A DNA stretch of 64,000 nt, from NCBI GenBank assembly GCA_963971425.1, contig OZ020520.1, forward strand, positions 25,190,754-25,254,753, read 5' to 3'. Every line of letters begins with the position of its first letter. Position 1 is the first letter of the stretch. Made by a program: the position numbers and the translations under genes. Below the pieces are notes generated by a model. The model did not search any database and was not told where the DNA came from. It saw only the letters and a program-made list of their open reading frames with translations. Positions 13,444-57,446 of the stretch are shown one piece after another. The DNA is from Bryoerythrophyllum caledonicum. Taxonomy: Eukaryota; Streptophyta; Bryopsida; Pottiales; Pottiaceae.

Positions 13444-14886
13444 ATGATGCATGAGGGGGATCACGCGAGCGGCGAGACGTCGACGTACAAGGTGCAGTCA
13501 TCGTCGACATGGGAGAGCTCCATGCGCTCCGCCTCGTTCGCCAGCGACGACCAGAGTGCGTCGTTCTCGGACCTGGCCCGCAGCATGAGCGTGCGCACGG
13601 ACGTGAACAGTACTTTTGCGCCCGGCTCGCGCCGCGTCCTGGACGAGACGCAGCAGAGCTGGCTGCTGCAGGCGCCGGGGAACCGTGACGAGAAGAAGAA
13701 GATGCGGCGGTTGATGCCGCGGGGGTGCAGCCGACGTCGCCTCGTCTGGGCCATCGTGTGCGTCTTCGTCTTCGTCGCGGCTCTCTCGCTCATCGTCTGG
13801 AAGGTCGCGCTGCGGACGCAACGTGAGGTAGATCAGGACTTGGACGAGTACGCGGTTGTTTTGCGAAAGGCGCTCACGTTCTTCGACATCCAGAAATGTG
13901 AGATCATTCCAGCTCTTCGTATTTGTGACGTGATGGGATATCTACCCTAGGTGTTGCAGGTTTAGGGTTTGGGGTTTTGAGAGAGGTGTGGCATCGTTTT
14001 AAGCCTGGCAACATTACCAACTAATTCGTATGTAATTATTGGTTGCAGCTGGTGATCTACAAAGTGCTAGTGGCAGGACCAGCGTTTCATGGCGAGCATC
14101 CTCAGGCTTGTCAGACGGCGATGGCACCCTCTCCGGCGGCTACTACGACGCAGGAGACAACATCAAGTTCACCTTCACAACAGCGTACGACATGACGCTC
14201 CTCAGCTGGAGCGTGATCGAGTATAAGGCCAAGTTCATGGCCCTCGGCGAGCTCAACCACGCCAAGGAGCTCATCAAATGGGGCTCGGATTACCTGCTCA
14301 AAACCTTCAACTCATCTGCACTCGACAGAGTCGTTTGTCAGGTATTGCTCACTACTTGATTTTGAAGTCATCGCAAGTTTCACCACCTCCTTCCTCACTG
14401 ATTTATGTATGTGTTTTGAAGGTGGGCACAGGAGGAGGTGAGATTCCGAACGACCATTACTGCTGGGAACGGCCCGAGGACCTGGACTACATGAACGACA
14501 CGCGCCGGTCCGCCATCGCCGTGCGCTCGGGCTCCGACTTGGCGGGCGAGATGGCGGCCGCGTTGGCTTCGGCGTCCATCGTCTTCAAGTCGCAGGCCAG
14601 TTACGCCCAGGCGCTTCGCACCGGCGCGGAAGCGCTCTACAGATTCGCCAGGGAGCGCCCGGCTCTCTACGTCAACAGCAGCGACGTCGCGCCTTCGGAG
14701 AGGACCCTGTACAACTCCTCCAGCTTCGGCGATGAGTTGGTGTGGGGGAGCGCCTGGTTGTCCTTTGCCACGGGGAATCTGACGTACCTGGACGAGGCTA
14801 CCGTCGGTGCGGCTCATGCCTTTGGAGGGGGTCGTACTACTGCGTTCGGCGCCTTCGATTGGGATAGCAAGCTCGTGGGTGCGCAG
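13444..14886 (+). pseudogene. Truncated membrane-anchored endo-1,4-beta-glucanase (GH9, KORRIGAN type), 5' half only
   Basis: Three exons splice in phase (13444-13897, 14049-14341, 14422-14886) into 404 codons. A cytosolic tail of about 100 residues is followed by a type II anchor (VWAIVCVFVFVAALSLIVW) and then the GH9 catalytic domain. [12 protein letters not shown] carries the DAGD acid, [12 protein letters not shown] and [15 protein letters not shown] follow, then PNDHYCWERPEDLDY and SDLAGEMAAALASAS. Full-length KORRIGAN proteins are about 620 residues. Everything after LVGAQ is missing, including the C-terminal His and Asp/Glu catalytic motifs. The last exon ends at a GT donor but no matching exon follows before the retroelement at 15204, nor beyond it at 27 kb. 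Family role: cellulose synthesis and wall assembly at the plasma membrane. This copy should be non-functional. Confidence 0.8.
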
Positions 14887-15200
14887 GTTGGTGATCACGA
14901 GGCTTTTCATATCCTTTGTGCACTCTAATAGTGGGCTACTATATGTATTGTGTGGATGCTACTTATACCAAAAAAATTCAGGATGAGGGGAGTATTGACC
15001 TTTGAACCATTTCAAACAACAGTGAGCAGGCTTGGTGCAGGATAAGTCTCAAGAAGGCAGGAACAAAAGGGTCTCCATGGGCGGCTCGCCGAGCTATACT
15101 ACCAACCTTTGCAGTGACATGTAATTTTGTAGTCGGCTTCCATCATAAAGATGAACACGATGACAACCAATGAAAGCAAGCGGGGGGCGAGGGAACAAAA
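14887..15200. other. Short gap between truncated GH9 and retroelement
   Basis: No coding sequence is recognised. It ends in the purine-rich run GCGGGGGGCGAGGGAACAAAA just before the element's left end. Confidence 0.4.
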
Positions 15201-15203
15201 CCT

Positions 15204-15574
15204 TGTCAGGTTCGACGCGTTGGAGGGTTTGTGGAGGTTGGTTTACGCGTTGTAAACCAACTAGGAGGTTAAATGGCCCAAGGAAACCCTAGATGCTAGC
15301 TTTAGTTGTTAATTAGAGTTAGTATTAGTGTTATTTGACTTTTAGGGCCTTGGTGGTGTCTTTTGACACCTCATTTGAGACTTGGAGTCCAAATGACCTC
15401 CACGTGTAGTGTGGGGAGACTCATCTTTCTCAAGTTGAGTCTCCCACGTGATGGAGTGAGAGAGTGCGTGCTTGCGTGCACTTCTTAAACTTCATTGTTA
15501 TTATGCAACCATTCTTTAAGAATGGCATTGGCTTGACTATGTGTAATTTATGAGTATTTTCTACTTGTTCATTA
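15204..15574 (+). repeat. Left terminal repeat, first 371 bp of the LTR only
   Basis: Starts TGTCAGGTTCGACGCG and matches 26384-26754 with a single mismatch that I can find by eye (AATTTA against AGTTTA). The second LTR segment (232 bp), which follows directly in the right-hand LTR, is absent here; the leader begins instead at ACTTGAGAAAGATC. Confidence 0.85.
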
Positions 15575-16181
15575 CTTGAGAAAGATCATTACTAAAATAT
15601 GAGTGTATTCCTAGTGATTTAGTGACACTTAAAACCCTCAAAATGTTGTGTTTAGAGTGTTTTTGAGCAATGTTTTAGTGCTGAAATTTTGTGGCAAAAC
15701 CTCAAGTGTGCTTAGCTAAGCGGATGAAATCCATTGGATAAGGGTGAGAATGAGTGGCGGATGTCAACTCTAAACCAATCCAAGTGGATGATAGTTCGTT
15801 GACCTTAGCCTTCATCCACACTTTCTGTGAGGATCTCAGATCCGCTTTCACAGGAGAGAGACGACGCAGGCTGTGCGAGTGGGGGAGCTGCTCACGTCGC
15901 TGGCGGAGGCGAGGGAGTTCTTGCGCGGGAGTCTGGAGGTGGTCGCGTTCAAGTCAAGGAGGTGCGGTGGTGGAGTTCGATGATTGCAGGGGCTGCACAC
16001 GGTGCCGGTGAGCGCGTCCGCGGTGGAGGTGAAGACGCCGTCGTCGGTCGCTGCTGCAGAGCCGGGATTCTTCGGGAGCAGAATTAGCCATACTACTTCA
16101 CAACGATCTTGGGAGCGCGAGGCGGCGGAGAAGGGACGACGACGGCGGTGCAGAAGGAAACACGAAAAGGATCTTGTTCTG

Positions 16182-16380
16182 GCGACGACATTTGCCCATC
16201 TGCAGACGACGACGGCACTGTCCCGTCAGATTTCGGAGCTGGGTATCTACCCTGCGCTGGGTTCTCTGGATTCGACTATCTACGCGTGACGTGCAGAAGG
16301 TGCTACAGCACTACAAGAACCTGCAGGACATCATCACGAGTTTGGGAATGGATGAGCTGCAGCGGTTGTCTTTGACAGTT
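16182..16380 (+). pseudogene. Captured fragment of mitochondrial ATP synthase beta subunit
   Basis: One frame reads [20 protein letters not shown] followed by [12 protein letters not shown] shifted frame then reads DVQKVLQHYKNLQDIITSLG followed by MDEL. The beta subunit of mitochondrial F1 has [30 protein letters not shown] and VQKVLQ.YK.LQDIIAILG in the same order, so the match is unmistakable. The stretch between the two parts is shortened and the frame is lost. It lies in the retroelement leader on the element's sense strand, as expected of a host transcript fragment picked up by the element. Outer limits of the captured segment were not determined. Confidence 0.85.
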
Positions 16381-16879
16381 CTGCATTTGTGTTATTCACC
16401 GTGGAGACCCAATGCGGCCATGAGTACGACTGGGCGAAATCAGTAGTTGTTCCTCCTGATTTTCAAGTGCTTGTGGAGGAAGGGCCTACGCAGTGCGAAG
16501 TTTTCCTCTGTGGAAGATGCTGGTGTTTGAGAGCGGCACATTCGATAGAATTTTTATTTTTGTGTGCGCAGGTTGGAGCTCGGAGTGAATCGCGAGACAT
16601 TGGGGTCTGGATATATTGCAAGCAGATCTGGAGCGGGGTGCTTCTTTTGGGTTTGGAGCTCCTGGAGTGGGAGTGTTGGGTGAGAGAGTTCTGGGCGTTG
16701 GGGTTAGGGTCGTGTTGAGAGTGCCGGGTTGGTGATCACAGAAACGATCCTTGTTCACACAGACGCAGGGTCTGTGTATCGACGCGGGAGTCTGTGCAGA
16801 CAGGTGCGGGCAGGGATTCGGCGTTCACAGACGCGGCGCAGACACCATCTACGCAGTACCCGTACCCACACCCGGACCC

Positions 16880-17745
16880 CTACTGTATACCGGCTGCTTC
16901 AGTATACCCGGCTGGAATGATACCCTCTTGTTATTTGATATCCGCCTTGTCTCGATACCCGCTGGTCTATGATACCCTGCAGTACTAATCATACCCTGGT
17001 TTTGGCACTTATACCCAGTCCTTTGGATCATGCCCGGGAGCTAAAACCCTGATTGAGTTTCTCGTACCCTGTTTGTGTTGATACCCGGTACCAGCTGAGA
17101 CCCGGTGAGGACTATGGTACCCAGATTTGGGGTCTGATACCATGGTGCAGGTTTAATACCCTGGTTCGGGCTTGATACCCTTGTGGGTCTGATACCCGGT
17201 GGGTACTGATACCCTGCCACTAACTAGTACCCGGTTGACTGTTTCATACCCGGGCAAGGTATGATACCCGGGGCAGTTATTTGATATCCCGGACAGCTGG
17301 TTCATACCCTGTGCTGATACTTATGCCCCGTACTGCTGAGACCCGATCCTTGTGCTAGTACCCGGAGTTAAATTGGAACCCGGCAGCGAAAGCTGATACC
17401 CTCCTGTGATTGATACCCCGGTGTGGGTTGATACCTTGGGGCCTCTTAGATACCCCGTTCTCTGTGATACCATGTCCTCTGCTGGTACGCAGTCCATGGT
17501 TGTATATCCGGCAGTCGGATTGATGACCGACGGTGGGGTTGATGACCGGCTGTGGGTTTGCAGACCGGCAGTCGGGTTGATGACCGGCAGCCAGGCTGAT
17601 AACCTGCAGTGAGATTGCTAACCGGCGGAGTTGATGCCCCGTATAGAGTTTGATATCCGGGATGTCGGGTTGATGACCGGCAGTCGGGTTGATAACCTGT
17701 AGTGTGGGTTGAAAATCCGAAGTGAGACTGATAACCAATAGTTAT
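16880..17745 (+). repeat. GATACCC minisatellite, about 20-bp period
   Basis: Roughly 40 degenerate units with consensus near TTGATACCCGGTGNGGG run through the leader; the 3' third drifts to TTGATGACCGGCAGTCGGG. Many units contain CCGG or another CG. No protein reading is convincing. Confidence 0.85.
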
Positions 17746-18035
17746 GATACTCACATGGCAGTAGACACCCATATTTGCACACGTTGCCCAATTCCGCTAG
17801 AGATATGCGGCCACTATAGCTCGTCACCCGTAGCTTCTTCATAAACGGAAAGTCTGGCATTTGTGGTCGCCATATTTTCGTATGTGGTCAGGAAGGGCTT
17901 GCATGTGAGATCACCTGAGGATCAACGTTGATTATGAGGAGGTTGAGAGGTAACTCATGGTCATCGGGTGTGGTGGGGGGTAAAGTAGAAGCCTGCAGGG
18001 ATTTTATTAACATGGTTTGAGTAATTCAAGGACAT

Positions 18036-18919
18036 TTGGAACTTAAGTTATGGACTATGGAGGGAAGAGGTAAGTCCATGAAACCCGAGGAGACTCGTGG
18101 GGAAAAGGTGGAAATTGATGGCCAGGTTTTGGACACCTTGATCGATTGTTTGCAGAGCTTACGAGTGAAAGGTTCTCCAGCCACAGCAAGTGGTAGCCAC
18201 GGGAACTTTGAACTTTCTCCCATAGCAAAATCTCGCTCGGGGCCTCAGAGCTTGCACAAACCAGGCACGAAGGTGTTGAGTGCAGAATCAGTGAAGTATT
18301 GGACTTCACTAGGTGGGGTTCAGAAGATTCGTTCACTTCGGACAAAGGAGGGAATTCCAGCACCACTGTGCCGTGCTCGTGAGCAAGTGGGGGTCGAAGA
18401 CTTGGTAACTGGAAGTAAGGCCGTGGTTCTTCGAAATTCTGGATCCAGATACGGTATAGAGGTTGAGGACTTCTCTTCAGGCATCCAGTTACCCACCTTC
18501 TCCCTCATTTTCACCGAGTTCGAGAGCGAAGGGTTTTTATTCCACACTACCTGGCAGTGGGAGATTAACACGTGGCAGGAGCGTGCCTCGAGTGTGTGGG
18601 ATACTCTTACCTTAGAGTTATTGGACTGGGAAGTCACACCTACGATTTATGCTCCAGAGATGAGAGGAACCCATGAGGCTTGGCATTTGTTCGAGTAGAT
18701 CACGAAACTAGCAATCTGGAGAATTGGAAGGGTCCCGGGTTTACACGTAGAAACACCCCCTTCTCAGTAGATGCTAGTGAGAGAGTGTTGTCTGAAATTC
18801 GTGGTCAATCGGAAGAGGTAGAGGAGAGTGCTTTGCCACTGGTGGAAGAGGAGGAATTTTTAGAAAGCCCGCAAGTGAGTGTTCAGGTTCCAGTTTTACC
18901 CATAAAGCCTTACCAATGA
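18036..18919 (+). pseudogene. N-terminal gag extension of the retroelement
   Basis: A 220-codon frame (18036-18698) starts near MEGRGKSMKPEE and overlaps a second frame (18680-18919) that is in phase with gag; a one-base shift near 18690 breaks the protein. TGA 18917-18919 then separates it from the next Met. The text is hydrophilic and plant-gag-like but matches no domain I know. It probably formed the first 300 residues of the Gag polyprotein before damage. A separate accessory ORF is possible. Confidence 0.55.
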
Positions 18920-18937
18920 TATTTTGATTGGGAGGAA

Positions 18938-20410
18938 ATGGCTTCACCATATGGAGGTGGAGAAAGAGGGGTACGGAGATTTTCGGGTGCCACGGGCACC
19001 ATCGAAGTCGATGATTTCAAGAGGGAGTTCACCATGTGGTGTGAATTCCAGAAGTCACGTAACCCCAACTTCAATCCGTACATGGTGTGGAGAGCCTTGT
19101 TTGGGTGTCTGGAGGGAGCGCCACTGGCGGACTACGGAGAATTCGAGGCGGCTCATTTCACTAAGATCATGGCCTGGAGAGACTTCTACGCACCTATCTA
19201 CGTGGATGTGTTCGGTGGAGCACCGAGGGTGACACCCCCACTCTTGTCCAAGGGGAAGATGGAGGAAGGTACGAGCTCAACGGAGGATGTGGAGCAGCCA
19301 GAGGTACTGGTAAATCATCCACCTCCATTCAATCCCACCGTGGGATTTTTCGTGCAACTCCATAGAGATTATCAAGGACAGAGGGCGGATAAGATGAAGG
19401 CCCTTCGTTCCTTCACACGTGGAGGTGACGAGTCTCTGAGAGAGGCTCATGCGAGATTAAAGAGACTAATTTCAGCCACTCACGGAGTCACAGAACAACA
19501 GGCAGTGCAACATTGGTACAGTATCCTGGATAAGGAGTTGAAGACCTTAGTTCGCAATGAGGCGTTGCGATTGGGTGTACCCACGACACTACGGTTTGTT
19601 TTTGAGACTTCGGAGCGGATTGAGATAAACTTACTGGAAGAGAAGGCAGCCATGGGCTTTTTCAAACGTGAGGAGAAGGTCCCAGAGAAGGTTAAGGTGG
19701 CCAAGGTGGCCATTCCTTCGTATACTGCGGAGTCTGGTGCCTTGTGCTTCAAATGTGGGAAGCCAGGACATCAGAGGAAAGATTGCAAGGAAGGCAAAAC
19801 TTCCACACCTCAGACTGGAGGTTTTTGCTTAGGTTGTGGTGCCAAGGGGCATGCAGAGGCCAGCTGCTGGAAGCTCCATCCAGAGTTGAATCCCACGGGG
19901 AGTAAGGGGGCTAAAAGAGGGAAGGACAAGGAGTCCAAGACCACTAGGGGGGAGAAGAAGAGTTGGAAGGCCAAATTTGCCGAGTTGGAGGCCAAGATGG
20001 AAGCTATGAGTGCCAATACCAATGTGGTAGGTAGCAAGCCTCAGATTACTCCCAGTTTTCATACTGGGGGCGGGTTTAGCTCCGTAGATGATGAATTTGG
20101 AGACTTTATGTTGAGTGGTACGGCACTTGCCATCAGGGATGGCACACAGGAGGCCTATGCCCTCACACGGAGTCATACTCCAAGTTCTAAGGATGTTCCA
20201 CGTGGAGCTAGTCCAACTCTGGATCCCCACCATGGAAAGGATAATCGACAAGCAAGGTTGCCTCAATCCTTCACGTTAGAAGAGATGGTACCGACGTCAT
20301 CCATGGTACATCCACCACGACCAGTGGCAACCCCCACACAAGCCTTACCACGAGCTGGAGGACTCACAGGAGGTTCTGGAGCACTTATGGAGGCAACTAC
20401 TTCCGTGTGA
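18938..20410 (+). CDS. Gag (capsid and nucleocapsid) of the retroelement
   Basis: 490 residues. The middle part (about 60-260) has the helical pattern of plant Retrotrans_gag domains (FVQLHRDYQGQ, SLREAHARLKRLI, HWYSILDKELK). Two zinc knuckles follow: CFKCGKPGHQRKDC (about 19748-19789), a perfect CCHC, and CLGCGAKGHAEASC (about 19829-19870). A long, low-complexity tail ends at TGA 20408-20410. The next frame continues in the same phase, so a readthrough or a mutated sense codon joined it to protease. It packages element RNA in a cytoplasmic particle. Confidence 0.85.
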   Translation: MASPYGGGERGVRRFSGATGTIEVDDFKREFTMWCEFQKSRNPNFNPYMVWRALFGCLEGAPLADYGEFEAAHFTKIMAWRDFYAPIYVDVFGGAPRVTPPLLSKGKMEEGTSSTEDVEQPEVLVNHPPPFNPTVGFFVQLHRDYQGQRADKMKALRSFTRGGDESLREAHARLKRLISATHGVTEQQAVQHWYSILDKELKTLVRNEALRLGVPTTLRFVFETSERIEINLLEEKAAMGFFKREEKVPEKVKVAKVAIPSYTAESGALCFKCGKPGHQRKDCKEGKTSTPQTGGFCLGCGAKGHAEASCWKLHPELNPTGSKGAKRGKDKESKTTRGEKKSWKAKFAELEAKMEAMSANTNVVGSKPQITPSFHTGGGFSSVDDEFGDFMLSGTALAIRDGTQEAYALTRSHTPSSKDVPRGASPTLDPHHGKDNRQARLPQSFTLEEMVPTSSMVHPPRPVATPTQALPRAGGLTGGSGALMEATTSV

Positions 20411-21343
20411 GAAGCCTCGTTATTTTTTGCTAAAATGTTGTCACAGGATGGCTTCCGTGTGGCAGAGGTCTTCAAAAGTGTGGCCTCAATGTGTGAGTTG
20501 GATAACTCCACGGGGGTTAATGTGTTGAAGATAGAGATAATCCAGGCAGAGGAGAGCCAGAGTGACAACGTGGAGGGGCTGCTTTCAGCAGCCATGCGTG
20601 TGAAGACAATAGCCGCTAGAACTGCGATTGAGAGATCATCCATTACCCCTGGTGTGGTAGTGGTTGATAATTCCCAAGGTATTTTCCAACTCGTTGGGCC
20701 TAAGGGGAAGATATTTGTACCTCGACGTGTGCTTCTGGATTCGGGAGCTCAACCTTTGATGCTGGGAGCGTCTGCTATGGAAGGATTGGGATTAACTGGG
20801 GATACTTTGGAGAAGTGTCCCTGGACCATTAGCACATCCATGGGGGGTACAGAGCACGCGACAGGGATCACAAGGGCTGAGTTGGTGTTACAACTCAACC
20901 AAAGTGATGTGGCAGATGCCAGTTCTATGAAGGTGAAGGCAATCGTTACGGAGGCCAAATCGTATGATGTCTTGGTAGGTTCGGCGGTGCTATATCCTAT
21001 GGGATTCACCTTGGATTTCTGGGAGGAGTCAACAAGCTATAGACCAGGATGGCAAGGAGGAGATGGGCGGAAGGCTCAGCTGCCAGCTCGATTTGTTCGA
21101 GTTCTTACTGGTAACTTAGCTAACGTGTTTGCCTTCTCTGGTTGTATGAACATGAAACCTTCATGGTTTCAGGCAGGTTTTGAGGATCCTTCTATGGTTG
21201 ACCACATTTCAGCGAAGGTGGATGTCTATATGGGCAACACAAGTGGTGGAGAGGAAGAAGGATACAAACTTGGGATTGAGGCGGCGTGGAGTAACACCAC
21301 CCAGTTGAGGGAGGTCGCGGAGTTAGCAGTGGAAGAGGCATGA
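20411..21343 (+). CDS. Aspartic protease module of the retroelement
   Basis: First Met at 20435, same phase as gag. The retropepsin active site is VLLDSGAQPLMLG (Asp at about 20738), followed by the hydrophobic flap and a second hydrophobic-Gly pattern (YDVLVGSAVLYPMGFTLDFW). Downstream residues to TGA 21341-21343 form an acidic linker. The length, about 300 residues including linkers, is ordinary for a protease with flanking spacers. The module is undamaged. It matures the polyprotein. Confidence 0.85.
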   Translation, partial: EASLFFAKMLSQDGFRVAEVFKSVASMCELDNSTGVNVLKIEIIQAEESQSDNVEGLLSAAMRVKTIAARTAIERSSITPGVVVVDNSQGIFQLVGPKGKIFVPRRVLLDSGAQPLMLGASAMEGLGLTGDTLEKCPWTISTSMGGTEHATGITRAELVLQLNQSDVADASSMKVKAIVTEAKSYDVLVGSAVLYPMGFTLDFWEESTSYRPGWQGGDGRKAQLPARFVRVLTGNLANVFAFSGCMNMKPSWFQAGFEDPSMVDHISAKVDVYMGNTSGGEEEGYKLGIEAAWSNTTQLREVAELAVEEA

Positions 21344-22792
21344 CAACAATCTATGCTACCAAAGATTCAACAGGAGACTGGAGTTGACCAAGACATGGGG
21401 CCTCCGTTAGACACTGCTACTATCCATTGGAAGGCACCAATGGATGGTATCGTATTATTGGAACTCTTCGGAGGAATTGGCACAGGCTTGGCAGTTGATT
21501 TACAAGCTGGGATCAAGGTTAAGCGCTACATTTACGTGGATGTGGATGAAACAGCAAAGCATGTCGCCAAACGTCACACACGGAGGCTGAGGACTCAATT
21601 CCCAGAATTGTTGGCCACTAATGCCATCAAAACCTCCTTCTCTACACTTGTGGGTGATATTTCCTTGTTGTCAGACGATGACATTCACCGAGTGGGTCAT
21701 GTAGACCTTGTCATTGCAGGATGGCCTTGCCAAGGCATGTCTATGGCAGACAATCAGAATGGGTTAAAGGATTCCCGTTCTTCAAGGTTCTTTGATATGA
21801 TTCGAGTGCTTCGATTGCTTCAGACTTCTCAGAGGCAACCCCCTGGTTATATTGTGGAGAACGTGCCCGTGGTGAGTAGTTCGAGGTCCAGGACACTCGA
21901 GAGTATGCATAGGGTCCATCAGACTCTAGGATTGCCAGTGTTAATTGATGCGGCTGCAGTAGGGTCCAGGGCACATAGACCACGCTTGTGGTGGACCAAC
22001 CTGGCACCAGCCGAGTTGCTACAGTCCGCGGTGGGTCGTATTAAACGCCCAGATGTGTATGTGAGTGACATTTTGGATCCTCACAGGACACCACGGCGCG
22101 TGTATCACGATGACCAGGCCCCATTAGCGGTGGTTAACCGCAAGGGGGAACCACGTCGGGCCTTGCCCACGTTGGTTAGTTTTGCAAGGTCTTATGCTTT
22201 CAAGGATAATGGACCTGGACTTGTATGGGATTCAATGTCCCAGGAGATGGTGGAGTCAAATGCAAATGAGCGAGAGAGAGCCATGGGGTTTCCCACTGGC
22301 ACCACCGATGTGCCCGGGATTTCAGAACCACAGAGACGATTTTTACTTGGTCAGGCCATGGATTTAAATTGCTTGACTTGGATTGTTTCATTAGTGGTTG
22401 CAGAACAGAAGCGGTTAGCTTCTAGTTTGACTAGTTACATGGGTTATTATGAGTTGCGGGCGGCAGGAGAACCACTTGCCTCTGTCAGGATGACAAGCAA
22501 GGTGGTTGGGGGCGAGACGGCCTTGGCACCTCATCCATGGAACATGTGGGATAACGCAAATATTTTTGCGACCACAAAGGCAATAGATCTTCACTATGGA
22601 GGGGAGAACTGGAGTGAAGGGAGCAGATTGGCTCACCAGAGGATGGATTTGGAGGATGTTGTGGAGAAGATTTTCTTGGAAGAACACACAGCTCTTCACA
22701 TGGAAGAAATTGACAAATTGGGACAATTGGAAGGACTTGGGAGTGTTATTGAGGAGGAAGGAGGGGAGTCTCTTTCACTGGGGATTCAATAG
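21344..22792 (+). CDS. C5-cytosine DNA methyltransferase encoded within the retroelement
   Basis: Uninterrupted frame, 479 residues from Met 21353. Motifs occur in the canonical, non-permuted order: motif I ELFGGIGTGL (Phe39-Gly43, SAM binding), motif II DVDE (63-66), motif IV GWPCQGMS with catalytic Cys126, motif VI ENV (169-171), motif VIII HRPRLWW (Arg209-Pro-Arg211), then a target-recognition stretch. Near the end come RERAMGFP, a motif IX-like AMGFP, and QRRFLLGQAMD, the motif X-like GQA/GN. No BAH, chromo, CXXC or PWWP domain is attached. The PCQ tripeptide is unlike classical DNMT3 (PCN), while IKVKRYIYVDVDE recalls DNMT3, so I leave the subfamily open. A last 70 acidic residues form the linker to RT. 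All key residues seem present, so this module may be active. TAG 22790-22792 ends it. Confidence 0.92.
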   Translation, partial: QQSMLPKIQQETGVDQDMGPPLDTATIHWKAPMDGIVLLELFGGIGTGLAVDLQAGIKVKRYIYVDVDETAKHVAKRHTRRLRTQFPELLATNAIKTSFSTLVGDISLLSDDDIHRVGHVDLVIAGWPCQGMSMADNQNGLKDSRSSRFFDMIRVLRLLQTSQRQPPGYIVENVPVVSSSRSRTLESMHRVHQTLGLPVLIDAAAVGSRAHRPRLWWTNLAPAELLQSAVGRIKRPDVYVSDILDPHRTPRRVYHDDQAPLAVVNRKGEPRRALPTLVSFARSYAFKDNGPGLVWDSMSQEMVESNANERERAMGFPTGTTDVPGISEPQRRFLLGQAMDLNCLTWIVSLVVAEQKRLASSLTSYMGYYELRAAGEPLASVRMTSKVVGGETALAPHPWNMWDNANIFATTKAIDLHYGGENWSEGSRLAHQRMDLEDVVEKIFLEEHTALHMEEIDKLGQLEGLGSVIEEEGGESLSLGIQ

Positions 22793-22798
22793 CAACCA
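22790..22798 (+). promoter_or_regulatory. TAG followed by CAACCA, a CARYYA stop-readthrough context
   Basis: The stop between methyltransferase and RT is TAG CAA CCA. UAG-CARYYA is the well-known leaky context of tobamovirus replicase readthrough. The two earlier junction stops are TGA GAA GCC (20408) and TGA CAA CAA (21341); the second matches only the CAR part. Alternatively TAG is simply a mutated CAG. Confidence 0.4.
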
Positions 22799-24949
22799 AG
22801 GGTGGAAAACCCTGCTCCAAAGGAACCGAAGGAGGTGGTGACTAAGGACACTTGGAAACCAAGAGTAGGCCTGGCGGATGGAGCAGTGGAGGTAGAGGAA
22901 CATGAGTTCCTGAAGGAGTATTTAGATTGTTTTGCTTTCAGTTTACATGATTTGGGAGTGTTGAAGGGGCAAGAAGTGCGTGTTAACTTAACCGACGAAG
23001 CACCAATTTATCGAAAGCCATACAAGTACAGCGACATGGAGCGGAAGATGATTCGTGTTCGCACTGAAGAATTGATGGCTGCAGGATTGGTAGAGTTGGC
23101 GCCTCCAGATTGTGAATATGCATCAGCAACGGTTATGCCATCCAAAAATGACATTTATGGTAATTGGACTGAGAAAAGGATGTGTGGTGACTATAGGAGA
23201 ATTAATAAATTCACTAAGTCAGACCGTTATGCAATGCCAACTCCTGAGGAGAATTTTGAGGCCATTGGCCATGCCAAGGTGTTTAGTACGTTGGATTTAC
23301 GCTCTAGATACCACCAGATTGGATTGAGAGAGGAAGACAAGGAGAAAACCGCGTTCTGGGGCATTGACAGGGATGGGAAGGACCGGTTGTTTCAATGGAA
23401 GTTTCTACCATTTGGATTGAAGAATGCTCCAGCAGAATTTCAAAGGGTCATGGACAGAGTATTCTCGGGGTTGGATTTCGTGAGATGCTATATTGATGAC
23501 ATCATTGTCTTTAGCAGGAATCGAAAACAACATAGACTACACTTGATGGAGGTTTTTGCTAGATTGAGGCTTCATGGATTAAAGTTGCACCCTGGTAAGT
23601 GCAAATTCTACTTTGATCGCATTGAGTATTTAGGCCACATGATTTATCCAAGTGGATTAGGTGTGGTAGCTAGCAAAGTGGAAGTAGTGATGTCTATTCC
23701 TAGACCACGAGATGTTAGTAGGTTGAGAGCATTTCTGGGGTTGTGTAACTATTATAGAAAGTTTGTCAAAACTTTCAGTGCTATCGCCAAGCCATTAACC
23801 ATGTTGACAAGAAATGATCAACCTTGGATCTGGGGAGATGAGCAAGAGGCGGCCTTTCAACAATTGAAAGACCGTTTGGCATCAGCACCAATACTTCGGA
23901 GGCCTATAGCAGGAAGGACATATCAGCTACACACAGATTGGAGCTCGTTGGGGATTGGTGCAGTATTGACGCAAATGGATGATGATGGTAAGGAATTTGT
24001 GATTGCGTATGCCAGCCGGTCCAACAACAATGCTGAGGCTCAGTACAGCTCGTATGAGGGGGAATGCTTGACTGCGATATGGACAATTGCTCATTTTCGG
24101 TGTTATCTTTATGGTAACGAATTTCTGTTAGTTACAGATCATCAGCCGTTGAAATGGTTGATGGAGTCTGATAAATTGACAGGAAAATTGGCACGGTGGG
24201 CCTTGATATTGATGGAGTATGACTTCAAGGTGGTTCATAGGGCAGGTTTGGTTAATATGGATGCAGATGGCCTTAGCCGCAATCCAATTCCAAACCAAGA
24301 GGATGATACAGGTGCTAGGTGGCATACTGAAGGTGAAACCGATCCGTTGCCAGGTTGGCATTGTTCAGGTTTTCTGGGAATATTGGCATTGAATGGAGAC
24401 ACCACCGGGGAAGCTACTGTGGCCACAGTAGATGAGGATGGAGGTGAGGAGTCTGGGGGCGCCAGAGATATTCACGAAGACACGAATGTGATGCAGTTTT
24501 TGCAAGATGGAGAAACGGTGGCTTCATGGTCTCATAAGGAGAGAGATAGGGTTCTACAACGAGCTAAGAGGTTTGTGTGGGAGAGGACTCACCTTGTGAG
24601 AGTGTGGCCAGATGGTACTAAGAAGGTAGTACCAACTCCAATAGAAAGAGTGAAACTGATTAAAGACACACATGAGGACCTTGGACACTTTGGAGTGCGG
24701 AGGACTTATAGTCTACTTCAGATTCACGACTGGTGGCGTGGAATGCAATCCGAAGTGCAAGCTTTAGTGGCTCGATGTATGGTGTGTGACCGGGTACGAG
24801 CGTCTTTTAACGCTCCAATGCCTCAGTTACAACCTTTGCCAATTATGGGCTTAGGATATAGATGGAGCTTGGATTTTGCAGGTCCATTGCCAGTGACACC
24901 TCGACACAACAAGTATGTGTTGGTAATCATAGAGCATTTCTCGAAATGA
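22793..24949 (+). CDS. Reverse transcriptase, RNase H and N-terminal integrase of the retroelement
   Basis: 715 residues from Met 22802. RT: RKPYKYSDMERKMI, RMCGDYRRINKFT, STLDLRSRYHQIGL, FGLKNAPAEFQRVMD and the catalytic YIDDI (Tyr230-Ile234). The RT thumb and connection are normal. RNase H: LHTDWSSLGIGAVLTQ, a Glu in YEGECLTAIW, and VTDHQPLKWL. The integrase zinc finger follows (HEDLGHFGVRR, then CMVCDR), and SLDFAGPLP carries the first catalytic Asp. TGA 24947-24949 stands where plant integrases have Trp in FSKW, so TGG became TGA. Up to that point the product is intact. Confidence 0.92.
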   Translation, partial: QPRVENPAPKEPKEVVTKDTWKPRVGLADGAVEVEEHEFLKEYLDCFAFSLHDLGVLKGQEVRVNLTDEAPIYRKPYKYSDMERKMIRVRTEELMAAGLVELAPPDCEYASATVMPSKNDIYGNWTEKRMCGDYRRINKFTKSDRYAMPTPEENFEAIGHAKVFSTLDLRSRYHQIGLREEDKEKTAFWGIDRDGKDRLFQWKFLPFGLKNAPAEFQRVMDRVFSGLDFVRCYIDDIIVFSRNRKQHRLHLMEVFARLRLHGLKLHPGKCKFYFDRIEYLGHMIYPSGLGVVASKVEVVMSIPRPRDVSRLRAFLGLCNYYRKFVKTFSAIAKPLTMLTRNDQPWIWGDEQEAAFQQLKDRLASAPILRRPIAGRTYQLHTDWSSLGIGAVLTQMDDDGKEFVIAYASRSNNNAEAQYSSYEGECLTAIWTIAHFRCYLYGNEFLLVTDHQPLKWLMESDKLTGKLARWALILMEYDFKVVHRAGLVNMDADGLSRNPIPNQEDDTGARWHTEGETDPLPGWHCSGFLGILALNGDTTGEATVATVDEDGGEESGGARDIHEDTNVMQFLQDGETVASWSHKERDRVLQRAKRFVWERTHLVRVWPDGTKKVVPTPIERVKLIKDTHEDLGHFGVRRTYSLLQIHDWWRGMQSEVQALVARCMVCDRVRASFNAPMPQLQPLPIMGLGYRWSLDFAGPLPVTPRHNKYVLVIIEHFSK

Positions 24950-25918
24950 ATAGAGTTAGTGGCATTACCTGATAAGTTCAGTGAGGGAGCTGCTTATTCA
25001 TTTCTTGACCGTGTTCTGAGTCGCTTTGGAGCTCCAGCAGAGGTACTTACAGACCAAGGCAGAGAATTCTTGGGTGAGTTTCAATCGTTGTGTGAGCAAG
25101 CGATGATTGATCATCGCACTACTTCAAGGGATCACCCCGAAGCAGATGGATTGGCGGAGCGCATGGTGCAAACCGTCAAGAGGGGGCTCCGGAAGTACAG
25201 CTTGAAGGAAGGACACCACCAGGATTAGGATTTACAGCTACCATGGATAGCAATGGGCTATCGGTTCAGCAAACAGGCATCCTTGGCGTCTTTTTCACCT
25301 TAATATCTATTGTTTGGAAGGCACCCGGTTTTACCGAAGGCCATTCAAGTAGATGCTGACACCGTGTTGGCTAACATGGACAATCCAGACACGTGGGCTC
25401 AAGTGTGTGAGCAACGTGCAGAGTTGTTCAAAAGGGTGATGCCTATGGCATTGGAGAACCTCTCCATTGCTCAACATCAGGATACGTTGCGCTATGCTAC
25501 AATACGAGGAGGTGGTTATCGACCGCAGGTGCGGCGTGTCACACCTGGAGACTATGTGTATTTGCAGCAAGCAGCGCCCACCACCTTGGATGTGACAGCA
25601 GGAAGGGTAATCTTGAGAGTTCGTGAGGTGAAGGACTCAGGAGTGTTAGTGTTGGAGGGTCGTGATGGCAAGAAGTGGAAGGATCACACACGTAATTGTG
25701 CACCTTGTCACTTGCCACACATTGATGGGACAATACACCCTGGTCTCTCTCACATCTCTGCTGGATTACGTTGTCGGTTGTGTGGTAGTGCCAAAAGGGC
25801 AGCCACTATGGTTATTTGTGACTTATGTTCTACGGGGTGGCATTTAGAATGCTTAACTCCACCTCTGTTGGAAGTACCAGTGGATCAATGGTCTTGTCCT
25901 GAGTGTTTAGCACGTTGA
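24950..25918 (+). pseudogene. C-terminal integrase and PHD finger of the retroelement, broken by two stops
   Basis: The frame continues from the previous module. The second catalytic Asp is in LTDQGREFLG (about 25050) and the Glu in HPEADGLAERMVQTVK (about 25140). TAG 25226 replaces a Trp and TAA 25301 probably a Tyr in the usual SP.Y.L.FGRHP motif. The last part (25310-25918) has the C-terminal DNA-binding SH3-like fold pattern (PGDYVYLQQ) and then a PHD finger at about 25755-25915: C-x2-C, C-x2-C, H-x2-C and W-x-C-P-x-C in RCRLCGS, MVICDLCSTGWHLECL and WSCPECL. A PHD finger reads histone tails and here takes the place of the chromodomain of chromoviruses. Confidence 0.88.
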
Positions 25919-26149
25919 GGGTCTGAGTGGACAAAGTCTAGCATTAAAAATATGTTAGAGGCGATTAACGATGGGGCTCTACTTGCACCCGGCCTACCCT
26001 TTGTTTGTTAAGTCTTTTAGCGCCTTTTCATGTGGATTACAGTGATTCTATGGTTTTGAGAGGTTTTCATTCGCGGTTATCATTCAGTTTACATGTAAAC
26101 TGTGTGGTTCGCCGGTGTGAAAGGGGCTTCAGCACGGGCGAAGGGGGCG
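25919..26149 (+). other. 3' untranslated part of the retroelement with purine-rich tract
   Basis: Non-coding. It ends in GAAAGGGGCTTC and GGGCGAAGGGGGCGAGTAAA (about 26120-26155), which resembles a polypurine tract, but the LTR-start sequence does not follow it. Confidence 0.55.
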
Positions 26150-26381
26150 AGTAAAGGGGTACTTGGAGACCGCTTACTACTTCTTGGTGTACGAGGTCAT
26201 GGGTCATTTATTTCTTTTCCCCAAGTCTGGATTGCTGAAAGCGTGTAAGTGTGCATTATATTATTGTTTTATAGAGGTAACGATGGTGGTTATGTCACCG
26301 TTGCTCTCGAGTTGTCTCTGATTGTGCGTTCTCACCTGATTAGCACGATGTTATCTTGGCACGATGCGGTTGTGCACGACA
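26150..26381 (+). repeat. LTR second segment (232 bp), left copy
   Basis: AGTAAAGGGGTACTTGGAGA to GTGCACGACA. The same 232 bp recurs at 26754-26985 with about seven differences by eye. Two bases (AC) then separate it from the start of the complete LTR. Confidence 0.85.
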
Positions 26382-26383
26382 AC

Positions 26384-26985
26384 TGTCAGGTTCGACGCGT
26401 TGGAGGGTTTGTGGAGGTTGGTTTACGCGTTGTAAACCAACTAGGAGGTTAAATGGCCCAAGGAAACCCTAGATGCTAGCTTTAGTTGTTAATTAGAGTT
26501 AGTATTAGTGTTATTTGACTTTTAGGGCCTTGGTGGTGTCTTTTGACACCTCATTTGAGACTTGGAGTCCAAATGACCTCCACGTGTAGTGTGGGGAGAC
26601 TCATCTTTCTCAAGTTGAGTCTCCCACGTGATGGAGTGAGAGAGTGCGTGCTTGCGTGCACTTCTTAAACTTCATTGTTATTATGCAACCATTCTTTAAG
26701 AATGGCATTGGCTTGACTATGTGTAGTTTATGAGTATTTTCTACTTGTTCATTAGTAAAGGGGTACTTGGAGACCGCTTACTACTTCTTGGTGTACGAGG
26801 TCATGGGTCATTTATTTCTTTTCCCCAAGTCTAGATTGCTGAAAGCGTGTAAGTGTGCATTGTATTATTGTTTTATAGAGGTAACGGTGGTGGTTATATC
26901 ACCGTTGCTCTCGAGTTGTCTCTGATTGTGCGTTCTCACCTGATTAGCACGATTGTATCTTCGCACGATGCGGTTGTGCACGACA
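26384..26985 (+). repeat. Complete LTR, 602 bp, TGTC...GACA
   Basis: It consists of the 371-bp segment (also at 15204) joined to the 232-bp segment (also at 26150). The ends form the short inverted repeat TGTC/GACA usual for LTRs. CCTTG follows directly. Confidence 0.85.
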
Positions 26986-26990
26986 CCTTG

Positions 26991-28457
26991 CACACCCATC
27001 GTGGACACTGTGCCGACCAAGTGGGGAGAGAGAGACAACGCTAGGGAAGAGAGGACTCTGTTCACCAAACCCTCTCTTCATATATCCAAGGGCCCATTGC
27101 CGCCTCTTACAGCTCCTATCGCACCATTGGGGCAAGGTGTACATCGCAGTGGATATTGCCAAAGCAACAGGGTATCTATGGGACGAGGAGCAACGAGGGA
27201 CAAAGCTCTACAACATCGAATCCTAAATTGGCTAATTTTAGTAGCAATGCTACAAGAAAAATTGGGCTATTGATATTACATTTTAAAATTTTAAAAAATA
27301 TAATGAAATTCAAACAAAATGCTATCCAACATAATAAGTATTTAGCTACCTTTTGAGATGATATCCACGGGTATCATATAGGTATATCATGGATATCAAA
27401 TAGGCATATGACAAACATTGCAGGATATGGCCTCGGTATCTCCACACACTATGTGCTTGAATAGCTTACTTAACTACTTCAAAGTGTAGGTTGTAGCATT
27501 TATACTGAGGTAGTCACGTCTAAAACCGACAATATTCCATGATTGACACCTATTTTTTCACTAGAAACTGCCAATAATTGCACATGTAACCAACTTCCTA
27601 ATTTAGCATCGGTAGCAAAAGGCATGGGTAGCGGAAGTTGGTTTCAAAGCTAGTGGTTTTAGGGGTAAATGAGTAGAAGGCCTCTTTCTTGGGTGGAATT
27701 GCCAAGTATTATTGGCCGTTTTGCATCATGGTATGAATGGGCATGGACTGTTGTCAGAAATACTGAATGCGTCAGAGCGCACGTAAAATAAAGGGAACTA
27801 GGATTTTCCAAATTTAATTTTAGTGTGAGCAATACCCGATTTCCACTTCTTTCGCCGGTGATTTTAGGCCATTTGTGGGAGGGTCATGGCCCCCACCTAC
27901 TGACCCAACTTTCTTCACATGTGACTTTGGAAATTCATAATTAATTTATAATACATCGGAAAAATATGAAATCACTTGGGTTGAAACAATAATTCTATTG
28001 GCTATCACTGAAAAATAATTTAATTACTATCTGGGCTCTTTATTAAACTGCTTAACTTGACGGTTATAGGGGGTTTTACCTTCATCTCAGAAATTGATTC
28101 TGAGATCGCTGCACTACATGAATCAATCGACGAACAAGGGATGGATGAAATACGTCCTTCATCATCAATCGGATGAACTTCAGTGGAAGGAGTGATCATC
28201 AACACCACCGTCCGAAGTCGGGGGAAACTTCCACGACCGCTGGACGAAGACCCCAACCACCGGGCGCGCCGTGAATTCATACAGAAACCTCCATCTACGT
28301 TTTCCGTCCTCCGGTCGTCGGGGAGCTCCAGAGCATTCCAGAGCCTTCCTTCGTCAATTTCAGGTGTCATGAAGTTGAGAGATGGTTGAGGATGATGGGT
28401 TTTTCAGGTGCAGAGGTTTAAGCTCCTTGTTGTGGTGGTGGTGAGGGTTTGGGAGCC
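26991..28457. other. Intergenic region between the retroelement and the Fes1-like gene
   Basis: It contains a GGTATC-rich patch (27355-27445) and a dispersed repeat (27955-28020). A 116-codon minus-strand frame (28370 to 28020) overlaps a 68-codon plus-strand frame; neither is recognised. The last few hundred bases should hold the promoter and leader of the Fes1-like gene, but no TATA box stands out. Confidence 0.4.
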
Positions 28458-54715: not shown

Positions 54716-56190
54716 CTAAGGGGGGTCTTGCCTATCGGGGAGGACTTGGTTGTTTTCGATTTTGCGTTTATGCAGTAAAATAGACATGGCATGTTGAATA
54801 GCGATGGTGTTGATATTTTTAAAGGTAGTTTTAATTGTATCAATGGGTATCTTGAAGGTATCTTCGAGAGTTTTCATAGATGGGATAAAGGTGGTGGCAC
54901 GAGCGCCGGATGTGATAACAATAAGGGGGTCCACATTCCAACCGAGGGCAATGATGTCGTCTATGAGGGGTTGGTATTTATCTATTTTGTTTTGTATTGT
55001 TTCCGGGGAGAATCTATCGTTGCAATATGTAAATTCGATGAATTGAATGGTGTAGTCTTGGTTGATGTTCTCAGGTGGTGGGTCGTTGTATGGTAAACCT
55101 TTGACACAAAGAATGTCTGGTTTGAGCCTAGCGTTGCAATGACATCTTTGGGTCATACATGAGCATGGAAGTAGCCATGGGGGGACCGTGTTTTCTTGTG
55201 GATTGCTATTAAAAGTGCCGGCGTTCATAAGTATGAAACATCTCGATTTATTGTAGGAGGTGATTAGTTTTCGGACTTCCCATACCGCTTTGTTATGTCT
55301 TTTAACAATTAGAGAGTGTATGTGGTGGTTTTGGCATTTGAGTAGCACATGAAGCCATGTGTCGGGGTCCGTTGAGGGGCATATGGGGCATGTTATGGAT
55401 GGGAATCTTTCTATTCCAAAGAAGAGTTGTTTGCGAGCATTTCCCATGTACTGACCCGTACGGAATTTGATGAGGCACGTTATTTGTGAGTCTGAGATGA
55501 TGGGGTTTTTCCAAAAGTTTGTAGAGAGTTCATTGTCTATGTCGTTATTGTTAGTCCATTTTTCTATGTTAGGAATATTTTCTGAGATTGTATCCAGGTT
55601 GTTGTAGAGGTCTTGTTTTTTGAGATATTTGACCAAAAATCTAATTGGGCCTTTGTCGGGGGTATCTTCTTTGGAGGGCCAATCTTCTTTTTGAAAGTAG
55701 TATGGGGTGGCATGAGCATGTTCGTGAGGGTCTTTGGCGTTTTGGTGTGTTTTTTCTCGGCCTTCTTTTGCAAGTTTGTCTGCTTGTTCGTTGCCATCAA
55801 TGTTGGCATGGGCTCTGACTTTGTGAAGGGTTGTGATTTGTGTACGTTTTTGTAACATTTGTACCATTGATGTTAGTATGGTTTGGTCGGGGTGATTGTT
55901 GTGAAGGGTTGGATGTGTTATTTGAGTGTTTAGTAGGTAGAGTGCATTTATACAATCGGTGAATATATGTGCAGGTTCATTTTTGTATTTTGTTGTGATG
56001 ATTTGTAGTGTTTTGTGGATGGCCATGAGTTCTGCTTTGAGGATATTTTGTAGTCCATGGAGTCTTTTGGCTAGTTTAATTTCTTTGGTAGAATTATATA
56101 TGCCATAGCCAGCTTTTTCTCTTCGCCAAGAGCCCGGGCTAATTTGTTCCGGTGGTTTAAAGGAGCCGTCGGTGTAATAACTGTATGCGG
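54716..56190 (-). pseudogene. LINE ORF2 C-terminal part: RNase H, zinc knuckle, PD-(D/E)xK-like domain
   Basis: The frame continues upstream of its first Met and includes YYTDGSFKPP (catalytic Asp, about 56168), a Glu in LKAELMAIHKTL, the second Asp in IFTDCINALYLL and HKVRAHANIDGNEQADKLAK (His and Asp), a complete RNase H I set. Next is a knuckle, CPICPSTDPDTWLHVLLKCQ then NHH. Then come KRHNKAVWEV, RLKPDILCVKG, IQFIEFTYCNDRF and KIDKYQPLIDDI, the RHN...PD...E...K..KY spacing of restriction-like endonuclease ends of some LINEs. The call for that last domain is from pattern only. Confidence 0.75.
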
Positions 56191-57446
56191 GGTTAAATTT
56201 GGTGTGGTATGAGTTGGGTAGTCTGGGAGAGGGGGAGGTATGACGGAGTAGTTTAATGTGTTGTTGTCATAGTTTAATTTTGACCATTTTTTACTTTTGT
56301 TTACGGGGGTTTGTATGGGTGTTGGTGGGGCCGGTTTTGTGTATGGTCGTTGTATGTCTAGATTGTCTGTTATGGAGGTAAGTTCCGCAAGTTGTTCTAG
56401 GGAGCCCAGGTTTTGATTTTGATGATGGACGCATAGTATTTGTAATGTAGATGGCTCTATTCGGGGTTTTTTTAGCTCGGGTGGGATATTAGGTTCTTCG
56501 TATGGTATTGTGTCTGCTTCGAATAATGCAATGATGTGGGAATCTGGGAATGGGTTTGAATGTTGGTTGTTGTTTTGGTACCAATTGTTGTTCGGTGTGA
56601 CGATGATTGTTTTTGTGTTATTTGGATCGTGTTTGGCGGCAAGTCTAGCCCAATGTATGGCTTGTTCTATGTCTTTCTCGTTGTGGGGGTGAGCTATTCC
56701 ATTTCCGATCCATTTGTGTTCAAAGGCCTTGCCTAGGGATCCAAATATTTTGTCTCTTTTGTACGGTGAGTAGAATTTATTTAGTTTGGTAGGACATGTG
56801 ATCGGGGAGGAAAAGTATGAGTGTTCGATGTTAAAGGATGATATTAGTGAGTCTAAAATGGGGGTGGGTATTGTGTATTGCGCATTTTTGAGGGGGTCAG
56901 TTTTTGGTATTCGATATTTATATCTTTGGTAGAGCCATATTAGTTCGGTTTCAAAGGGTTGGGTTGTTGGTTCAATGTTTGTAGGGGATTGTAATTTTGT
57001 ATGATATTGGTTCCATAACCATTGGAGCCGGGTAATGGGTATGGTGTGTAGATGTCAGCCGTTTTCTTCGTATAGATGTGCTTGATTGTTATCTATTTGA
57101 ATTGTGTTTGAGGATGTAAGGATATCATTTTTGGGGTTGCATTCTGTTGTGTAGATGCTTAAGAGTGGGATAATTATGGGTGGCGTTACGGACCTTGAGT
57201 CTGAGGATTGTTCTTGTGGATGGTGGGCAAGGATGATATCTGAGTATATTTTGTTTTGGATCTTTTGGTAGTATTGTTTTAATTTTTCAGTGTTATGTGT
57301 GGAGGTATTGGTGTCATGCCGTGGAAAAAGGTCTCTTTGGGGGAGCCATTTATTGTATGTATTATCATTGTGTTGCCATTGGCATAGATATTTTGTGTAG
57401 GTATTTTGTATGTTATTTGTGTCTGTGTGTTGGATATGTTTATGGT
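56191..57446 (-). pseudogene. LINE ORF2 segment between RT and RNase H, function unknown
   Basis: About 400 codons in the RNase H frame with one TGA near 57055. Recognisable protein text includes EKDIEQAIHWARLAAKHDPN, then TKTIIVTPNNNWYQNN and FPDSHIIALFEADTIPYEE. I know no LINE domain with these motifs. The segment is longer than the usual RT-RNase H connection. Confidence 0.5.

Follow-up and report, generated by a model that had tools for sequence, protein, structure and literature searches.

A gypsy-type retrotransposon of Bryoerythrophyllum caledonicum with a predicted DNMT3-type cytosine methyltransferase in its Gag frame, upstream of a putative leaky stop

Positions 15204 to 26985 of the window, as we call the whole 64,000-nucleotide stretch of Bryoerythrophyllum caledonicum DNA analysed here, are occupied by a damaged retrotransposon, one of many copies of a green-plant lineage that has moved recently. 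Between protease and reverse transcriptase (RT), it holds what sequence and predicted fold identify as a complete C5 methyltransferase, nearest to DNMT3, and the amber stop separating this module from RT looks like a deliberate, leaky one. The features of the window copy, all on the plus strand, are:

15204..26985, +, whole element, damaged copy, with TGTC...GACA ends
15204..15574, +, repeat A1, with 1 difference in 371 from A2
18938..20410, +, Gag frame with a CCHC zinc knuckle at about 19745-19792 (PF00098 1.1e-5, PF03732 0.001)
20435..21343, +, aspartic protease frame (PF13650 2.5e-4, below its cut-off)
21353..22792, +, predicted DNMT3-type C5 methyltransferase frame (PF00145 6e-13; PDB DNMT3A 1.6e-14; Foldseek DNMT3)
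22790..22798, +, amber stop in TAG-CAA-CCA (UAG-CAR-YYA), with CAA before it, kept in 35 of 40 copies
22802..24949, +, RT, RNase H and the zinc-binding part of the integrase (RVT_1 3.1e-31, RT_RNaseH 2.4e-33, Integrase_H2C2 6.7e-14)
24959..25918, +, remaining integrase and a C-terminal PHD finger at about 25772-25906 (rve 2.5e-6, below its cut-off; PHD 3e-10)
26150..26381, +, repeat B1, beginning at a purine-rich stretch
26378..26387, +, inner joint GACA-AC-TGTC (the palindrome GACA-GC-TGTC in 13 other copies with a joint)
26384..26754, +, repeat A2
26754..26985, +, repeat B2, 97% identical to B1

The Gag, protease, methyltransferase and RT-RNase H frames of this copy lie in a common reading frame, and the preliminary description rightly placed the module between protease (20435-21343) and RT-RNase H (22802-24949). 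The continuous protease-to-RT frame that it also described is not present, being interrupted by a TGA at 21341-21343 before the module and by the TAG at 22790-22792 after it. This TGA and another one between Gag and protease (20408-20410) represent damage of the window copy itself, because sister copies are open at both places over 1,371 residues; in relatives, protease and methyltransferase are joined in one protein. These two parts had been taken for the only undamaged ones, which needs correction, since the Gag and RT-RNase H frames are open too and the remaining damage consists of three in-frame stops breaking the integrase (24947, 25226 and 25301). L015, an undamaged relative on a contig of 9,285 bases whose two 127-base ends are identical, has the RT-RNase H-integrase-PHD order of the window without damage. 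The PHD finger after the integrase and the A-genes-B-A-B repeats had not been noted by the earlier reader.

The leader that separates A1 from Gag (3.4 kb) contains a minisatellite with a spacing of about 19 bases (17495-17743), and the counterpart of this leader in L015 has short tandem repeats too (27 and 38 bases). Just past the PHD frame, the stretch AGGCGATTAA.GATGGGGCTC...TTGCACCCGGCCTACC (window 25952-26015, L015 6750-6810) is strongly conserved between the two elements, which are otherwise widely divergent outside the genes. An Rfam scan of 15000-27100 gave no match at gathering scores. Elsewhere in the window, a piece of a GH9 (endoglucanase-type) gene lies at 14278-14928, about 275 bases upstream of the element, and frames with RVT_1 and RNase H and a strong GC skew at 54719-60058 on the minus strand probably belong to a LINE-like element. 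That this is a land-plant example, as the earlier reader held, is supported both by other genes of the window (dirigent, GH9 and F-box) and by named bryophyte relatives.

The methyltransferase frame (21353-22792) is open over 479 amino acids. As claimed at first reading, it has the full C5 motif set in order and without an internal stop (FGGIG, DVDE, PCQ with Cys126, ENV, HRPR and GQAMDLN, non-permuted), and the Pfam search that had been suggested as a check matched PF00145 with E=6e-13. When the family profile was compared with PDB chains, DNMT3A ranked first (5.5e-27), followed by 4onj (3.5e-14), which we take to be tobacco DRM, and DRM2 (1.1e-11), with a DNMT2-type tRNA methyltransferase (5.7e-9), HaeIII (3.9e-8) and HhaI (4.8e-7) lower down. 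The AlphaFold2 model had a confident core, with 161 of 479 residues at a pLDDT of at least 90, a mean of 69.3 and a poorly modelled tail, and the best 50 of its 201 Foldseek matches (E up to 0.001) were all DNMT3 structures. DNMT3 methyltransferases, which share the non-permuted C5 order, thus appear to be the nearest solved relatives of the module. The DRM type was rejected because the motif order is not permuted and because DNMT3 is nearest in both sequence and structure matches. The CMT and DNMT1 types were rejected because DNMT3 is nearest and no DNMT1- or CMT-named chain was among the 59 PDB matches of the family profile; a chance ORF was rejected on the basis of 108 homologues and the structure match. 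Animal DNMT3 proteins have PWWP and ADD domains, whereas both are absent from the module, PF00145 being the only Pfam domain in the frame. GWPCQG was kept in all 36 rows analysed, and simple patterns for ENV and HRPR matched 31 and 33 of these rows, with 5 and 3 misses. The CpG observed/expected ratio was 0.52 in the window's module versus 0.68 in the window (0.67 and 0.89 in other copies), a depletion that is compatible with methylation and silent on who methylates.

A search of the 437-Mb genome assembly with the module gave at least 89 scored matches among 2,238 candidates, 84-100% identical. No internal stop was found in at least 28 of the 89, and the 1,371-residue Gag-protease-methyltransferase frame was present in at least 10 of these rows, at least 8 of them without an internal stop. 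The copy count proposed in the preliminary description therefore did not bear out a unique insertion, and its term 'full pol module' holds in part: the methyltransferase is a full module of the element, as the 89 matches indicate, but in undamaged copies it sits C-terminal in the Gag-protease frame rather than in pol. A PF00145 search of the genome gave at least 123 scored matches, from which 40 copies were fetched, mostly chosen for long frames. One full-length PF00145 match, L034 (G000:C14:16016358-16017317; 218 bits, 370-residue open frame), was unlike the element copies and is probably a host or contaminant methyltransferase gene.

Selection on the module, earlier called conceivable, finds support in these copies. 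With the Nei-Gojobori method, the two nearer subfamilies gave a median dN of 0.071, a dS of 1.72 and a ratio of 0.041 (208 pairs), which is approximate because a dS of about 1.7 approaches saturation; in comparisons with the L015 kind, dS was saturated. Within subfamilies, the ratios were 0.131 (120 pairs), 0.176 (78) and 0.208 (21). In matched sets, the module showed 0.039 (25 pairs) and RT-RNase H 0.019 (16 pairs). The module set leaves out 6 of the 40 copies (L046, L047, L052, L054, L087 and L091), and the RT set 2 of 10 (L105 and L109). Between the window and L015, codon positions 1, 2 and 3 of the module differed by 41, 30 and 64%. By these comparisons, the module is clearly under purifying selection, with a dN/dS of about 0.04 between subfamilies. 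A module without function, be it a passenger or a capture confined to this locus, would fit the damage of the window copy and the loss of the catalytic Cys in the relative P0003; with 89 scored genome matches, low dN/dS and relatives in bryophytes and algae against it, we regard this as very improbable, and the 89 matches refute the private capture.

The Gag-protease-methyltransferase frame ends at the amber codon, with no run-on into RT. The sequence around it, UAG-CAR-YYA, is described in the available text of PMC3542737 as the classical type I readthrough signal of plant viruses, and was found at the border in 35 of 40 copies by DNA alignment, these copies having been picked for long frames. 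Of the 35, 28 fall in the window's own subfamily or in the sister one, and the other 7 are the complete set of the L015 kind. L015 itself, checked as a test after the signal had been sighted in the window, has TAG-CAA-TCA at the matching border, and the two families sharing the signal are only 52% identical. As for exceptions among the 40, the border was unaligned in L051 and not found in L091, and the last base differed in L101. L089 and L093 have a sense codon in place of amber, which would permanently fuse Gag to RT. In a first batch of 20 copies, the signal stood at the first stop past the module in 16, and in 15 of these 16 the frame continued beyond amber without a stop over the full 117-120 codons of the stretch. 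The signal is absent from the other five in-frame stops of the window.

Tobacco mosaic virus (TMV) and BNYVV share the type I readthrough signal UAG-CAR-YYA with the element; their in planta readthrough is 32% and 11%, respectively, and CAA codons flanking the stop matter for readthrough, according to the accessible part of PMC2754532, which also lists gypsy-type elements of rice among readthrough candidates. CAA codons lie on both sides of amber in the window and only after the stop in the L015 kind; TMV has CAA before amber, as in the window. The viral stops are in replicase or coat genes, whereas that of the element lies between methyltransferase and RT. Because the methyltransferase is in the Gag frame upstream of amber, it would be expected at Gag dosage.

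This dosage argument would fail if amber were a plain gene end and RT-integrase were made by splicing or re-initiation. In L042, a copy from the sister subfamily, an in-frame ATG follows amber at a distance of 24 codons, so that re-initiation is possible there; two copies have a sense codon at the amber site, and some Marchantia and Closterium gene models at NCBI place methyltransferase and RT in one protein. However, the first in-frame ATG after amber is at codon 82 in the window and L044 and at codon 117 in L015, L082 and L083, and exact UAG-CAR-YYA is preserved across two distant families, so we give the plain gene end a small chance.

Outside the genes, the element has the repeat order A1-genes-B1-A2-B2, which is the DIRS-like A-genes-B-A-B. 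Right ends of 17 other copies were B-A-B in 12 (2 of them, of the L015 kind, identified solely from the sequences of joint and outer end), B-A-B-A-B-A-B in 1 and B alone in 2, with neither A nor B found in the remaining 2 (c5 and L113); in c3, the left end was not found. Insertions differ in how many BA units they have, as seen from copy c7 (L075 and L118; G000:C9), which ends in B-A-B-A-B-A-B and has a perfect 4-bp target duplication. All eight copies in which both ends were read start with TGTC, end with GACA and have exact 4-bp duplications (AGGA, CCTC, AACT, ATGC, AGTT, AGCT, TAGT and AAAT). The window copy is flanked by CCT (15201-15203 and 26986-26988), which is 3 bases of the usual duplication. 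The integrase therefore uses the start of A and the end of B, regardless of the inner units. The inner joint GACA-GC-TGTC, a 10-base palindrome, was present in 13 of 13 jointed copies and in L015, with AC in its middle in the window. This B|A joint resembles a junction between both ends of a single DNA, with two bases added, which a circle or concatemer would be expected to contain.

In 3 of 6 copies compared, A1 and A2 were exactly identical, which suggests recent movement. The window's own repeat pairs have 5 A/G and no C/T transitions, plus transversions, and had suggested strand-biased deamination; G-to-A hypermutation was dropped, as 16 repeat pairs of other copies gave 5 A/G versus 6 C/T.

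These properties combine two kinds of element. With Ty3/gypsy LTR retrotransposons, the element shares the order of protease, RT, RNase H and DDE integrase, undamaged in L015, as well as TG...CA ends and a short target duplication of fixed length. Those elements have two identical full LTRs, whereas here the left end is A only and the right end is variable. With DIRS retrotransposons, it shares the split direct repeats. DIRS elements have a tyrosine recombinase, which was not among the Pfam matches of six frames over 18938-25915, and to our knowledge they make no target duplication, in contrast to the 4-bp duplications of the element.

Protein searches identified named relatives in the liverworts Calypogeia fissa, Riccia sorocarpa and Marchantia polymorpha, in the peat moss Sphagnum, in the green alga Closterium and in the chlorophytes Monoraphidium neglectum and Cymbomonas tetramitiformis, as well as many metagenome proteins; no Klebsormidium-named record was among the matches listed. 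In 133 sequences of at least 1,100 residues (132 database proteins and ORF1 of L015), the module followed the protease in 33, lay between RNase H and integrase in 97, including fragments of that order, and preceded RT in 3, without a detected protease. As the searches were seeded with the module, these counts are silent on the share of gypsy elements that carry it. The module was seen ahead of RT in P0150, P0248 and P0250 and between RNase H and integrase in P0141 and others, and some polyproteins of the latter order have a G-patch domain too. In the methyltransferase tree (61 rows, one DNMT3A fragment as outgroup, P0250 dropped; 21 of 58 inner branches unresolved) and the RT tree (31 rows, P0146 and P0224 dropped; 11 of 28 unresolved), one branch (SH-aLRT 92 and 93) separates the RNase H-methyltransferase-integrase arrangement from the others, and thus the module appears to have moved along with RT.

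L015 is 52% identical to the window in the methyltransferase and 62% in RT-RNase H. It was the only relative among 19 loci from GTDB contigs, the other 18 having no alignment to the element's RT; none of 14 loci returned from viral contigs aligned to that RT, and of the further searches for relatives, one gave no match and another no confirmed relative. The L015 contig (1-9285) is a retroelement of plant type and apparently circular. It has been assigned to a cyanobacterial MAG, and the related protein P0043 to an Obscuribacterales MAG; prokaryote bins contain eukaryotic element DNA as a contaminant.

The closest known system is KnitGypsy-Dnmt3 of the charophyte Klebsormidium nitens, compared here by its published description only (de Mendoza et al. 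2018, PMC5890265). According to the available text, it likewise has Gypsy enzymes and a coding frame that includes a Dnmt3-type methyltransferase, together with DIRS-like repeats (Fig. 4 legend) and purifying selection with Ka/Ks below 0.2. Its methyltransferase is placed in Pol, unlike the Gag-frame module of the present element, and a leaky stop and PHD finger, as found here, are unmentioned in those parts of the description. SymbioDIRS-Dnmt3 of Symbiodinium shares the Dnmt3-type module and A-genes-B-A-B repeats and differs by its tyrosine recombinase in place of a DDE integrase (PMC5890265). Ginger1 DNA transposons, as far as the accessible part of PMC2836005 describes them, resemble the element in their Gypsy-type integrase, TGTNR ends, 4-bp duplications and, in at least one family, a PHD finger, but have no RT, have terminal inverted repeats and target CCGG-like sites, whereas the eight duplications found here are of mixed sequence. 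A 2025 survey again names streptophytes and dinoflagellates in its accessible part (PMC12344493). Among the matches listed from the open-licence literature, no title or abstract start reported bryophyte or chlorophyte members or the leaky stop.

The reading that we consider best, and about evenly balanced between right and wrong, is a methyltransferase made at Gag level ahead of a leaky amber and carried in the particle, where it would methylate the element's new DNA before integration. Most ribosomes would stop at amber and yield Gag-protease-methyltransferase, and a minority would read through and add RT and integrase as a rarer product. The methyltransferase would enter the particle with the RNA and act on cytosines of the double-stranded cDNA, perhaps a circle with the B|A joint, and the integrase would then insert the A-start/B-end DNA after methylation. 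Each new copy would then be methylated from the moment of its insertion, which might serve to disguise it or act as a brake limiting harm to the host. Judged from the sequences, such self-marking is plausible, and self-methylation was proposed for the Dnmt3 captured by K. nitens gypsy and Symbiodinium elements (PMC5890265). The available parts of that source report de novo CG methylation in yeast by some retroelement Dnmt3s. Against the best reading stand the 5 of 40 copies without the exact stop signal, the rows missed by the simple ENV and HRPR patterns, the ATG soon after amber in L042, the damage of the window copy and the absence of activity of the KnitGypsy-Dnmt3 enzyme in yeast, a result that its authors call inconclusive (PMC5890265).

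The enzyme could instead act in trans on host chromatin, on the methylome or at insertion sites, with the PHD finger aiding site choice. A DNMT3-type catalytic fold, as predicted, and a chromatin-reading PHD finger within the element would suit this role, and effects of such elements on host methylomes are discussed by de Mendoza et al. (PMC5890265, available text). That the enzyme is encoded together with Gag and protease speaks for the particle, however, and K. nitens, although it has such elements, shows a methylome like that of land plants (PMC5890265), which leaves the action on host chromatin unlikely in our view. Within the particle, the module could also methylate the element's RNA or be an architectural, DNMT3L-like part in assembly. 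In favour of the former, LINE enzymes of Symbiodinium have been suggested to methylate RNA (PMC5890265, available text), but sequence and fold are closer to DNMT3 than to DNMT2, and the catalytic motifs are kept, needless for an architectural role; we hold either role to be quite unlikely.

Taking the particle-borne methyltransferase together with the other features, we tentatively propose an old and distinct green-plant lineage, in which split repeats with a palindromic joint would feed a DDE integrase from circular or concatemeric cDNA, the integrase would carry a PHD finger, and a DNMT3-type enzyme at Gag level, set by a TMV-type leaky stop, would methylate the cDNA before insertion, so that new copies would bear the mark on reaching chromatin. 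For bryophytes, the named records and the present genome contradict the absence of such elements from land plants stated in the available part of a 2019 article (PMC6338049).

Gene catalogues may count copies of the element as host methyltransferases; the UniRef names of one Marchantia and one Sphagnum record start with 'DNA (cytosine-5'. Methylation is a main weapon of plants against transposons. Here, selection maintains a methyltransferase of the de novo type in a transposon, apparently at the dosage of Gag, so that whether early self-methylation is a help or a restraint to a transposon becomes testable, with relatives of the element in Marchantia, a laboratory model.
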